Below, in pieces: positions 10,329-28,912 of a DNA stretch of 32,346 bases (the first letter of the stretch is position 1; each line of letters starts with the position of its first letter). Under the pieces are notes generated by a model. That model ran no database searches, was not told where the DNA came from, and saw nothing but the letters and a program-made list of their open reading frames with translations. The translations under genes were made by a program, and so were the position numbers. This DNA is from Candidatus Magasanikiibacteriota bacterium (GTDB taxonomy: Bacteria; Patescibacteriota; Patescibacteriia; Magasanikbacterales; UBA922), in the NCBI GenBank assembly GCA_018650085.1, contig JABIGQ010000005.1:1-32346 (forward strand). The letters are read 5' to 3'.

Positions 10329-10420
10329 ACGTCATTGCGAGCGTAGCGAAGCAATCCCAGAGTTTAGCGCATTAAAGCCTGGGATTGCCGCGTTGTCCTA
10401 ACGGCAACTCGCAATGACGT
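10329..10420 (+). repeat. REP/MITE-like palindromic element, copy 1
   Basis: A 92-bp palindromic element with 13-bp terminal inverted repeats, ACGTCATTGCGAG and its complement, and an inner pair CAATCCCAG / CTGGGATTG. It begins 6 bp after the PBP stop codon. The core from GAAGCAATCCCAG to GGATTGCCGCG is nearly identical, in reverse complement, to the element at 17125-17210. Repeats starting CGTCATTGCGAG are known from many unrelated bacterial genomes. As RNA it folds into a long hairpin that would lie at the 3' end of the PBP message. Confidence 0.88.
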
Positions 10421-16692: not shown

Positions 16693-17091
16693 CTATTGTA
16701 AATCCAATACCTTGTTTACTTCGGCATCAGATTCTTTATTTTCTGCACGGGGGATATGGGTAAGGGTTACTTTCTTGAACCCTTGCATGATATTCCATGC
16801 TTGTATAAATAATTTTTGGATATTGAGATTTTTTACTTTCCATCTTCTGTTTAATTGTTCTACAACTAATTTACTATCTAAAAAACAAAATACTTCTGTA
16901 GCACCAAGTTCTTTTGCTTTTGCCAATGCAGAAATAATTCCCATGTACTCTGCATAATTGTTTGTTTGCTCGCCCAGATACTCTCCATAGTGTTCTATGG
17001 TTTCTCCGGCTTCATTTTTTATGACAATACCACTAGCAGCAGGCCCTGGATTCCCACGAGCACCACCGTCTGTATAAAGAAATAATTTCAT
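16693..17091 (-). CDS. rnhA: Ribonuclease HI
   Basis: RNase HI cuts the RNA strand of RNA/DNA hybrids. The 132-residue product has all four metal-binding acids: Asp8 in YTDGGARGNPG, Glu48 in NNYAEY, Asp72 in FLDSKLVV, and Asp122 in ESDAEVNKVLD. The last motif is usually EADALANxALD; here LAN is replaced by EVN, but the Asp is kept. It lacks the basic protrusion of E. coli RNase HI and so belongs to the short form that also resembles the C-terminal domains in YpdQ/Rv2228c-type proteins. It lies 8 bp before the glycosyltransferase and downstream of recJ and the REP element. Confidence 0.93.
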   Translation of the reverse strand: MKLFLYTDGGARGNPGPAASGIVIKNEAGETIEHYGEYLGEQTNNYAEYMGIISALAKAKELGATEVFCFLDSKLVVEQLNRRWKVKNLNIQKLFIQAWNIMQGFKKVTLTHIPRAENKESDAEVNKVLDLQ

Positions 17092-17097
17092 AATACA

Positions 17098-17235
17098 TTA
17101 TACTTGTTTAATATCTTTTAGCATACGTCATTGCGAGCGTAGCGCGGCAATCCCAGGCTTTATTGCGCTAAACTCTGGGATTGCTTCGTCGTACCTCCTC
17201 GCAATGACGTTTTTATTTATACTTGTTTAATATCT
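17098..17235. repeat. 19-bp direct repeat flanking REP copy 2
   Basis: TTATACTTGTTTAATATCT occurs at 17098-17116 and again at 17217-17235, an exact match. The second copy is the last five codons and stop of recJ read backwards (DIKQV plus TAA); the first is a noncoding duplicate just upstream of rnhA. The 100 bp between them (17117-17216) hold the REP element. This is what a target-site duplication, or a repeat-mediated duplication, would leave. Confidence 0.9.
17125..17210 (-). repeat. REP/MITE-like palindromic element, copy 2
   Basis: An 86-bp element with the same 13-bp ends as copy 1 (ACGTCATTGCGAG / CTCGCAATGACGT) and an inner CAATCCCAG / CTGGGATTG pair. Read on the minus strand its core matches copy 1 nearly base for base, so both copies have the same orientation relative to the upstream gene. 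It starts 6 bp after the recJ stop, as copy 1 does after the PBP stop. Confidence 0.88.
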
Positions 17236-18989
17236 ACAATGGTCAATTGCAATTCACGATTTCCATTCCATTCATTTATCCCAATTTCAAATACAATATC
17301 AATAGTATCCCCAACATGTAAGAGTTTACACCAATTTTTCTCCTCACCATCAGTGGTGCAAAGGTTCCATCCAATAGTTTTACGTATGACATTGTTATTG
17401 TGTGTGACTAAAATACGCAAATGTTTTTTTTCTTTTCCTAGTGGTTTTAGCTCTGTAATTGTTACACCACGAGCTACGTATTTTGGGGCAGGATTTTTTT
17501 GTCCAAATGGTTTGAATTTATCTAGAGAATCATAGAGCTTCCAGTCCACATCTGCTAAATCTATTTCTGCATCGATATCAAGAGTGGGAGTCATGTCTAT
17601 GTCTTTTGTTTTTTTACTACATTTTTTTATAAATGCTTCTTGGAATTCTTTTATCTTTGAGCTGTCTGCTAAACTAAATCCACATGCCATAGGATGCCCA
17701 CCAAATTTATCAAAATATTCGGGCATTTCTTGCAATGAATCTATCATATCAAATCCTGGGACACTTCTACCAGATCCTGTAACGACATCACCATTATTTG
17801 CCATGATAATCGTTGGTTTTTGATAGCGAGCTTTTATACGACTGGCAATTAATCCTACAATACCTGTAGTCCAATCGGGATTATAATAAAAAAGCACAGG
17901 ATTATCTAATTGATGTTTTTCAACATTATCTATGGCTTGTTTTACATAATTTTCTGTTATCTCTCTGCGTTCTTTATTATTTTCATGTAACCTAAATGCT
18001 AGATCTATAGCATCTGATCCATATTTCGCAGTGAGTAATTTATATGCTACATTTGCATGATCAATTCTTCCTGCGGCATTAATTTGTGGCGCTATACGAA
18101 ATCCTATGGTATTTGCATCAATTGGTTTTTTCAAGACCATGTCATTATCCATTATTCCTGATTCAAGAAATAATTTTTGTAAGCCTATCCGGCGTGTTTT
18201 ATTTAATACAATTAATCCATACTTCGTTAGTGTGCGTGATTCTCCCAGTAGGGGAACCATATCTGCCACACTTGCAATAGCGACCATGTCTAGTAACCAT
18301 TTTTCAAATCCTTCGTGTGAAATACCATTTGCGAGTGTTTCGTGTGATTTGTGATGTGTATGAATTAATCCTTGGGCTAATTTAAATGCTACACCACCAC
18401 CAGCAAGTTCTTTATCTGGGTATGGTTCATCTGGAACCTTTGGGTGAATAATTGCATGCGCTTTTGGGACATTTTCTGGAACAGTATGATGATCTGTAAT
18501 AATACTATCTATTCCTTTTTCATTTGCATATGCAATTTCTGTTGCATTACTAATTCCACAATCACAGGTGATAATAAGATTTGTTCCTTTATCTGCCAAA
18601 TAGTCAATAGTATTATTATTCAAACCATAGCCATCTTTTTCACGATGGGGGAGATAGACATCTATATGTTTTGCGCCTATAGCTTCTAACACTTCTGTAA
18701 GAATAACAGCAGCACTTACTCCATCTGCATCATAATCTCCGTGTATGGTGATATGTTCATCTTTTTCTACCGCAGTAAATAAACGACGAACCGCCACTTC
18801 CATATCTTTAAATAAAAAAGGATCATGCACATCTTTGCTATAATCTGGTTGAAGAAAAGAATCAATCTCCTCTGCGGTCATTATTCCTCTATTATATAGG
18901 AGAGAAGAAACTATCTTTGGCAATTCCGGATGATTGTCTATAAATGATTGTGGAGGAGATGGAAGAACATTCCAACGTTTTTCAATCAT
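17217..18989 (-). CDS. recJ: Single-stranded-DNA-specific 5'-3' exonuclease RecJ
   Basis: RecJ degrades single-stranded DNA 5' to 3' in recombination and mismatch or base repair. The 590-residue protein has the DHH phosphoesterase motifs: HGDYDADG (residues 83-90), TCDCG (about 142-146), and DHH at 166-168, followed by the DHHA1 motif GGHPMACGFSL and a C-terminal OB-type domain. I chose the ATG at 18989 (MIEKRWNVLP), not the ORF start at 19055, because the family begins near there and because the upstream 66 bases are covered by a small membrane peptide gene in another frame. That gene's TAA is 1 base before this ATG, so translation is probably coupled. lepA lies upstream in the same run. Confidence 0.93.
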   Translation of the reverse strand: MIEKRWNVLPSPPQSFIDNHPELPKIVSSLLYNRGIMTAEEIDSFLQPDYSKDVHDPFLFKDMEVAVRRLFTAVEKDEHITIHGDYDADGVSAAVILTEVLEAIGAKHIDVYLPHREKDGYGLNNNTIDYLADKGTNLIITCDCGISNATEIAYANEKGIDSIITDHHTVPENVPKAHAIIHPKVPDEPYPDKELAGGGVAFKLAQGLIHTHHKSHETLANGISHEGFEKWLLDMVAIASVADMVPLLGESRTLTKYGLIVLNKTRRIGLQKLFLESGIMDNDMVLKKPIDANTIGFRIAPQINAAGRIDHANVAYKLLTAKYGSDAIDLAFRLHENNKERREITENYVKQAIDNVEKHQLDNPVLFYYNPDWTTGIVGLIASRIKARYQKPTIIMANNGDVVTGSGRSVPGFDMIDSLQEMPEYFDKFGGHPMACGFSLADSSKIKEFQEAFIKKCSKKTKDIDMTPTLDIDAEIDLADVDWKLYDSLDKFKPFGQKNPAPKYVARGVTITELKPLGKEKKHLRILVTHNNNVIRKTIGWNLCTTDGEEKNWCKLLHVGDTIDIVFEIGINEWNGNRELQLTIVDIKQV

Positions 18990-18990
18990 A

Positions 18991-19092
18991 TTAAAATGCA
19001 GAAAATATTGGAAGGACTGTAAAAAATAGCATCCCACCAATTCCAATAATTGCAATAAACATTTTTAATTTTTTGTGTTGTTTGTCTGCCAT
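18991..19092 (-). CDS. Small 33-residue single-pass membrane protein between lepA and recJ
   Basis: A complete frame of 33 codons reads MADKQHKKLKMFIAII, then a Gly-rich hydrophobic run ending FSAF and TAA. The basic N-terminus (five Lys and two His in the first 11 residues) followed by about 20 hydrophobic residues is the pattern of a membrane-inserted small protein, or of a signal-anchor. It starts 16 bp after the lepA stop and ends 1 base before the recJ ATG, which is the spacing of a coupled gene. No Shine-Dalgarno is clear. I do not recognise a family. It could instead be untranslated spacer, but the charge pattern and gene-like spacing on both sides make that less likely. Confidence 0.62.
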   Translation of the reverse strand: MADKQHKKLKMFIAIIGIGGMLFFTVLPIFSAF

Positions 19093-26549: not shown

Positions 26550-26555
26550 CTATCA

Positions 26556-26584
26556 AACATACACGAGATTATGCTATCTGTCAA
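26556..26584 (-). promoter_or_regulatory. Promoter of noncoding RNA 1
   Basis: TTGACA (26579-26584), 17-bp spacer, TATGTT (26556-26561) on the minus strand. The spacer differs from that of copy 2 by one base. Confidence 0.8.
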
Positions 26585-26625
26585 TAGGGCATATGTGAAT
26601 AGTATAGATGTGTAGGGAAATTGCT

Positions 26626-26778: not shown

Positions 26779-26784
26779 TTTTCA

Positions 26785-26813
26785 AATATACACGAGATTA
26801 TACTATCTGTCAA
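26785..26813 (-). promoter_or_regulatory. Promoter of noncoding RNA 2
   Basis: TTGACA (26808-26813), 17-bp spacer, TATATT (26785-26790) on the minus strand. The spacer happens to contain a second TATAAT. Confidence 0.82.
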
Positions 26814-26865
26814 TATGGCGTATGTGAATGATTGCAATATATTAAATTTTATGGTACTATATTTT

Positions 26866-26884: not shown

Positions 26885-28912
26885 ATGTCTAAATTTGTTT
26901 TAAAATCCAAGTATAAACCAGCAGGTGATCAGCCAAAAGCGATTAGTGGGCTTGTTTCTGGTTTGGAAAAAAATATAGATAGACAAACATTACTGGGTGT
27001 TACTGGTTCTGGAAAAACATTTACTATTGCAAATGTTATAGAGCAAATAAATAGACCGACACTGGTAATAGCGCATAATAAAACACTGGCAGCACAGCTG
27101 TGTAATGAATTTCGGGAGTTTTTTCCAGATAATGCAGTAGAGTATTTTGTATCATATTATGATTATTATCAGCCAGAGGCGTATATGCCAGGGAGTGATA
27201 CTTATATAGAAAAAGAAGCACAAATTAATCAAGAGATAGATAGACTTCGTCATGCCTGCACACAATCATTACTTACAAGAAAAGATGTTATTATAGTAGC
27301 ATCTGTATCTGCTATTTATGCACTTGGTTCCCCAAAGGAATATGAGAAAATTGTCTTGCATTTATCTGTGGGACAAGAGCTAGATAGACGTGGTATGATG
27401 GAGCAGTTAATTGATATGCAGTTTGAAAGAATAAATGTAGGATTAAAGCGTGGGACATTTCTTATGCGTGGACAAGTGTTTGAAATTATGCCAGTAAATG
27501 AAGAAAAAATTTATCGTTTAGAAATAAGTAATACCATTGATAGAATAGAAGTTATAGATCCAGTAACCAGAAAAGTGGTACAAGAGCAGGAAGATGTTTG
27601 GTTTTTTCCAGCAAAACATTATGTGGCAAGTAAAGAAGCGAGAGAAAAAGCATTTTTTCAGATGAGAAAAGATATAGATGATAGATTGGTGTACTTTAAA
27701 GAGAAAGGTAAATTGCTGGAGTACGAGCGATTGAAAAGAAAAACAAATTATGATTTGGAAATGATAAAACAAGTGGGGTATTGTAATGGAATTGAAAATT
27801 ATTCTTCTTATTTTGATGAGAGAAAAACTGGCGAGCCTCCGTTTACATTGCTTGATTATTTTTCACATAATAATGATAAATTTCTCACAGTGGTAGATGA
27901 ATCACACGTGACTATGCCACAAATTCGTGGAATGTATCATGGAGATAGATCTAGAAAAGAAACATTGATTGAACATGGATTTAGATTGCCAAGTGCACTA
28001 GATAATCGTCCGCTTATGTCTCCTGAATTTTTAAATAGAATTGATGATCTTATTTTTGTATCTGCAACTCCTGCTGATTATGAAAAAGAAGAATCAGGAA
28101 ATATAGTAGAGCAGATTGTGCGTCCCACAGGATTAGTCGATCCAGAGGTAATTATCCATCCAGTGACAGGAAAAGGAAAACAAAAATCTCAGGTAGAAGA
28201 TGTGATTGAAAGAATTGAAAAACAAGTAAAAAAAGGGGATCGTACATTGGTGACAACATTAACAAAGAAAATGTCAGAAGATTTAACAGATTATCTAAAA
28301 GATAAAGGTATTAAAGTCGCATATTTACATAGTGACATAAAAACAATTGAGCGAATAGATATTATTTCAAAGCTTCGTAAAGGGGAGTATGATGTGCTTG
28401 TGGGAGTAAATTTATTAAGAGAAGGCTTAGATATCCCAGAGGTTTCTTTTGTGGCTATTTTAGATGCAGATAAAGAAGGATTCCTGCGTAATGAAACGAG
28501 TCTAGTCCAGACTATAGGGCGTGCTGCTAGGAATGCAGATGGAAGAGTGGTATTATATGCAGATAATATAACAAAATCAATTACACGAGCGATAGAGGAA
28601 ACAGATCGTCGTCGTGAGATTCAATTAGCATATAATAAAAAGCATGGTATTACGCCAAAGACAATAGAAAAGAATATAAAAAATATTTTAGAAGAGTTTG
28701 GTATTTCTCCAAAAAAGGGGAAACATACGGGGAGAGCAAAAAAACAAAAACGATTATTAGAATTGGATCTGCTGGGGGATGATAGACCTATGAAAGAAAT
28801 TATTCGTGATAAGGAAAAGAAGATGAAAGAGGCTGCAAAGGATTTGGAGTTTGAATTGGCGGCTATATTACGTGATGAGATTCGTGTATTGAAGACGGTG
28901 AAGGAGGAGTAG
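26885..28912 (+). CDS. uvrB: Excinuclease ABC subunit B (UvrB)
   Basis: UvrB is the damage-verifying helicase-like subunit of nucleotide excision repair; it receives DNA from UvrA and recruits UvrC. The 675-residue product is full length. Walker A is GVTGSGKT (residues 38-45). The beta-hairpin that is inserted in the duplex is [16 protein letters not shown]. Helicase motifs include DESH, SATP and the QTIGRAARN block near the C-terminal third. The UVR domain at the end ([20 protein letters not shown]) binds UvrC. uvrA follows 1.4 kb downstream, separated by two genes. The upstream side holds the tandem noncoding RNAs on the opposite strand. The start codon lacks a Shine-Dalgarno. Confidence 0.97.

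Follow-up and report, generated by a model that had tools for sequence, protein, structure and literature searches.

The last 19 bp of recJ occur twice in this Magasanikiibacteriota genome: once as the end of the gene, and once as a noncoding copy on the far side of a REP-like element that lies between recJ and rnhA. Our best reading, to which we give a probability of roughly 40%, is that a single repair or template-switch event, tied to the element and not involving a transposase, produced this arrangement. A separate small duplication, before or after the insertion, is nearly as likely. The duplication looks like a one-off repair accident and not like the element's normal way of moving, because the other copies that could be examined lack such a duplication.

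The duplicated recJ end and the element between its copies

The window (the whole stretch of DNA that we analyzed, 32,346 bp) is contig 1 of the genome, which has 1,001,033 bp in 64 contigs and which we call G000. The relevant features are:

16693..17091, minus strand: rnhA-like RNase H gene (Pfam RVT_3 and RNase_H)
17098..17116, plus strand: noncoding 19-mer copy upstream of rnhA (exact match)
17117..17124: TTTAGCAT, 8 bp that separate the noncoding 19-mer from the core of the REP, with no clear sharing with other copies
17125..17210: CGTC-tagged REP-like head-to-head dimer (ACGTCATTGCG...CGCAATGACGT), from repeat comparison and hairpin folding (z -5.97)
17211..17216: TTTTAT, 6 bp that separate the core of the REP from the original 19-mer, with no clear sharing with other copies
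17217..17235, minus strand: original 19-mer, the 3' end of recJ including the TAA stop (homologous to the same-genus recJ end)
17217..19055, minus strand: recJ, open frame from TTG, with a likely ATG start at 18989 (translation inspected)
10329..10420: the window's second REP-like dimer, with no flanking direct repeat above 7 bp

The 19-mer, TTATACTTGTTTAATATCT, is present exactly twice in the window, and its copies are 100 bp apart, as an earlier note on this DNA had reported. With up to 3 mismatches allowed, these are still the only two matches in the window (shuffled sequences averaged 0.04 matches, and 0 of 100 shuffles gave two). Across the 1.0-Mb genome, a search that allows up to 2 mismatches likewise finds just these two. 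That one copy is the end of recJ with its stop, while the other is noncoding, was also part of that note, and both the translation and the alignment bear it out: the 17217 copy encodes ...IVDIKQV* on the minus strand, which aligns with ...IVDIKQS* of the same-genus relative. The noncoding copy sits 6 bp before the ATG of rnhA at 17091. The product of recJ contains the Pfam domains DHH, DHHA1, and RecJ_OB, and most relatives align with the rnhA product from residue 1. Both genes look intact and align with their relatives to their ends. (We also considered whether the duplication supplied a promoter, as a TATAAT before rnhA was spotted by eye, but a scan of that strand did not call it and we dropped the idea.)

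An artefact of assembly or strain mixture is the least likely of the explanations that we weighed. The assembly is in 64 contigs, which could favor such an error, but both genes are intact, the junction is otherwise ordinary, and normal reads should easily resolve a 19-bp repeat whose copies are 100 bp apart.

The REP core at this site is 86 bp. G000 holds 19 complete copies of the CGTC-tagged palindrome dimer (a pattern count agrees), which combine a small set of half-unit types in different ways. CGTC is at both outer ends in all 19 copies. A CCA-type tail (...GCAATCCCA) points inward. As a single strand, the dimer with its flanks is predicted to form a strong hairpin (-28.6 kcal/mol, z -5.97). 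The monomers have a 5-bp ATTGC/GCAAT stem, one of them with an inner 3-bp stem (z -1.24 and 0.58). We call the half-units "CGTC-REP-like" because the uninterrupted stem is 5 bp and not 8-9 bp. The window's core is 98.5% identical over 68 bp to a copy on contig C56 and 95% identical over 82 bp to a copy on contig C6. For the 8-bp and 6-bp side pieces, we found no convincing donor among the other copies; the best match of the 8-bp piece was 8/10, which counts the GT of the core, with one copy at locus L010.

Some observations concern other copies or other repeats. Behind a gene that looks like ahcY, a REP copy (C6:9793) has AGATATTAAA at equal distance, and about 24 of 30 bases match without gaps by eye. 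We deemed this match a coincidence because these letters belong to the end of that gene and the rest mismatches recJ. REP dimers lie behind an ahcY-like gene (translation inspected) in two genera (L009, which is C6:9793, and L165, at G023 C9:7111), perhaps as independent insertions at the same gene end. A 14-bp sequence, GTGAGAAATTGATT, lies directly behind three REP copies with differing right half-units (G000 C26:3102, C42:4147, and C54:11609) and has no further exact copy in G000. The window also contains a 48-bp direct repeat (26553-26600 and 26782-26829; 92% identical and 229 bp apart) upstream of the open frame at 26885.

The recJ-rnhA junction in relatives

We compared 30 loci, including the window's own. 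One locus (L045) has rnhA only, and recJ adjoins rnhA in the other 29. None of the 28 other junctions contains a CGTC dimer, including the junction of the sole same-genus genome (G001), so there is good support for a gain of the element here in this lineage. With both genes apparently intact, this agrees with the view in the earlier note that the element moved in this lineage without harming recJ. That note had also looked to the relatives for an empty site with a single 19-mer. The element is indeed missing from 28/28 junctions, but none of them gives a clean empty site of that kind: G001 has a 34-bp gap without the element, and this gap cannot be aligned with the empty site that we propose. 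The nearest genome's RecJ is 68% identical in protein, and none of the 28 junctions is close enough to align. A RecJ scan of the genome contigs gave 3 distant loci (34-43% identity), and an empty/filled comparison in a related genus (g23) gave one readable case, which is too diverged for a base-by-base reading.

From the homologous recJ end to the ATG of rnhA, 17 of the 29 junctions (own included) span at most 38 bp; the other 12 are enlarged. Twelve junctions, again counting our own, span more than 45 bp, and a duplicated recJ end of more than 7 bp occurs in the window's alone. Other palindromic repeats enlarge several of these junctions (TCATCC[C/T]GAG in L025, L026, L039, and L051; GTCATTCC in L046). 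Three junctions, each from a different genus (L036, L040, and L049), have a PD-(D/E)XK-like reading frame with inverted repeats around it, joined in frame to the 3' end of recJ. (The one of the three that we tested matched PF13366 with 83 bits; we take this frame to be of the GxxExxY type.) In L036, a 7-bp repeat, TAAGACT, flanks the frame. The recJ-rnhA spot tolerates insertions repeatedly.

Flanks of other copies and candidate vehicles

We surveyed the flanks of 85 dimers from 10 genomes of the same family; 80 of these have full 60-bp flanks. The count of exact repeats took all 85 dimers, and the mismatch and constant-offset tests omitted the five without a full flank. (Two genomes with a single match were left out: G022, and G003, whose match is not a REP by its letters.) The longest exact flank-to-flank repeats are 19 bp, for the window copy, and then 11, 10, and 9 bp; between mismatched flanks, the maximum is 12 in 1,218 cross pairs. 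When mismatches are tolerated, the window copy scores 19 and the runner-up 11, and all 1,130 cross pairs score below 13. (The survey's looser pattern misplaced the left boundary of a G000 copy at L010, near 1193, making it 125 bp long; when properly bounded, it has no repeat.) Repeats that score at least 8 are in slight excess (23/80 versus 12.9 expected), and these include at least one MITE duplication (L077). We found no short duplication at a constant offset among the 80 dimers.

A long flanking repeat is thus unique to 1 of the 80 dimers with full flanks, and none of the other 79 has a comparable one. A transposon or MITE with target-site duplication would have a flanking direct repeat of constant length in most copies, and these dimers do not. 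The 19-bp repeat is therefore not a family trait, and insertion as such does not cause the duplication. The earlier note had read the repeat as a direct trace either of insertion with target duplication or of template switching. The insertion of the element in this lineage stands and template switching is still viable, but the survey argues against target duplication as the rule, which removes one candidate mechanism. The main value of the recJ-rnhA site is as a test case for target duplication in these repeats.

We also searched for a REP-associated transposase, as that note had suggested. PF01797 has no match in G000. The REP-transposase model NF047646 finds two weak genes in G000 (35.6 and 30.5 bits, with a cut-off of 80) and one strong gene in G001 (107 bits). 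The two RAYT-like genes in G000, both beside GTAG-type palindromes, are:

C54:22938-23387, minus strand: weak match to NF047646
C56:46657-47220, plus strand: weak match to NF047646

The palindromes that flank them are GTAGGGACAGGTC... and GTAGAGACGCAGC... (GTAGGGACAGGTCGTGACCTGTCC; GTAGAGACGCAGCAATGCTGCGTCT). The end motif of the CGTC REPs is absent from the 3.5 kb examined around these two genes and from around the RAYT of G001. In a REPIN system that is mobilized by a RAYT, the gene would be flanked by the same palindromes and the REP head would be GTAG or GTGG; here the palindromes differ and the head is CGTC. We therefore rejected a RAYT as the agent. Also, according to the available portion of PMC2817692, IS200/IS605 elements leave no larger duplication of the target, which agrees with the earlier remark that transposases of this type do not usually leave such long ones.

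Another transposase might still act here. Regular transposition by a putative enzyme that makes long duplications of variable length would fit a repeat that stands on either side of the element, at a spot where insertions recur (12/29 junctions are enlarged). We consider this very unlikely. It is opposed by the count of 1 in 80, with or without mismatches, by the lack of a short duplication at a constant offset, and by the association of the G000 RAYT-like genes with GTAG palindromes. Also, the insert would need to have brought 14 bp of flank that are not clearly common to other copies.

At least one route of spread can be seen in genus g23. In two genomes (G023 and G059), several CGTC dimers are inside a 184-208-bp MITE with the ends TGTAAGAATCGNCAGCGTT. 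We found this MITE at 17 places, of which 10 are complete; L195 and L197 belong to a single copy, one at each end, which leaves 9 distinct copies (L183, L185, L186, L188, L191, L193, L195, L198, and L199). (The remaining 7 places have no readable right end, and 5 of these are at a contig end.) All 9 copies contain a REP dimer. Five (TGTAAGAATCG ends; L183, L186, L191, L195, and L199) have an exact 7-bp target duplication, and the other four have no exact one. In this genus, then, REP dimers spread as MITE cargo. Such nesting is a route by which REPs that have no transposase can spread, and it points to hitchhiking as one route, at least, that is real. MITE ends are missing from the window copy, and the MITE end sequence (up to 2 mismatches) is absent from G000, G001, G060, G021, and G010.

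One event or two, and comparison with known systems

In the single-event reading, a segment of about 100 bp with a CGTC-type REP-like dimer would have been inserted just behind the stop of recJ in this lineage, and the final 19 bp of recJ would have been duplicated on the segment's far side in the same event. The route was probably fill-in repair of a staggered break, or template switching of replication at a hairpin, and not the element's normal transposition. The empty site would have read recJ ...AGATATTAAACAAGTATAA, then TGTATT, then the ATG of rnhA, which is a gap of 6 bp. Because of the duplication, recJ would have kept its stop and rnhA 25 bp of former upstream sequence, and the insertion may have survived for this reason.

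We have several pieces of evidence for this reading. First, the two 19-mers are still identical even though only one of them is coding, which makes the duplication young. The REP core is close to its siblings in G000, so the core and the duplication could be of one age. Second, all 28 other junctions lack the element, and a 6-bp ancestral gap fits the range of the shorter junctions in relatives. Third, the dimer's hairpin is a plausible stall site. Fourth, transposition of the IS200/IS605 type, as the available portion of PMC2817692 describes it, leaves a 19-bp duplication unexplained. Against this reading, the side pieces, with no donor found, fit equally well as the old spacer of a gap that predates the REP, and the other 79 dimers, none with such a repeat, and the unalignable gap of G001 also speak against it.

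Alternatively, the REP came into the gap with no duplication, as other copies seem to have done, and a separate small duplication confined to this spot copied the end of recJ, earlier or later; template switching at the hairpin may have produced it. This is quite possible. Other dimers lack a long flanking repeat, and on the recJ strand, the side pieces ATAAAA and ATGCTAAA are plausible as old intergenic sequence. Without the REP and the duplication, the gap would be 20 bp, which is within the range of the relatives. A caveat is that both events are needed in a gap of about 125 bp, and recently enough to keep 19/19 bases identical.

If the single-event reading applied more broadly, CGTC-type dimers would sometimes enter gene ends by break repair that duplicates the end of the neighboring gene, so that host repair and no transposase spreads them, with MITE cargo as the route elsewhere. 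We think this is unlikely. An insertion scar with a date would be rare evidence on how CGTC-type REPs spread. The available portions of PMC3733652, PMC2817692, and PMC3116915 do not report long duplications at CGTC REPs (subscription literature was largely outside our scope). Overall, the duplication at recJ-rnhA is real but ordinary for its kind.

The element resembles MITEs with target-site duplication in being a short, non-autonomous, palindromic element between direct repeats. Unlike them, it has no common terminal inverted repeat beyond the REP, and the duplication is in one copy only. As in RAYT/REPIN systems (the portions of PMC2817692 and PMC3116915 at hand), a dimer of inverted REPs is the likely mobile unit, and the genome has RAYT-like genes. 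Here, in contrast, those genes adjoin GTAG palindromes, their scores fall short of the NCBIfam cut-off, and the 19-bp duplication does not match what IS200/IS605-type movement leaves (as far as the excerpted text of PMC2817692 describes it).

The closest comparison is with the CGTC-tagged REPs of Di Nocera et al. 2013 (PMC3733652). These have CGTC (or TGTC/CCTC) at the outer end. In the accessible part of that paper, most of them are head-to-head dimers, and they often lie close to where the gene upstream ends (3'); they include RPE-4 and RPE-6 of Rickettsia and dRS3 of Neisseria; and they "apparently lack a dedicated transposase", with their manner of spread stated as open. They have an 8-9 bp stem and a 4-5 bp loop, whereas the elements that we studied have a 5-bp uninterrupted stem, longer and variable loops, and halves of mixed type. 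As in the CGTC-tagged REPs described there, we found no dedicated transposase, and the element shares their CGTC end, ATTGC...GCAAT stem, CCA-type tail, head-to-head dimer, and position near the 3' end of an upstream gene.
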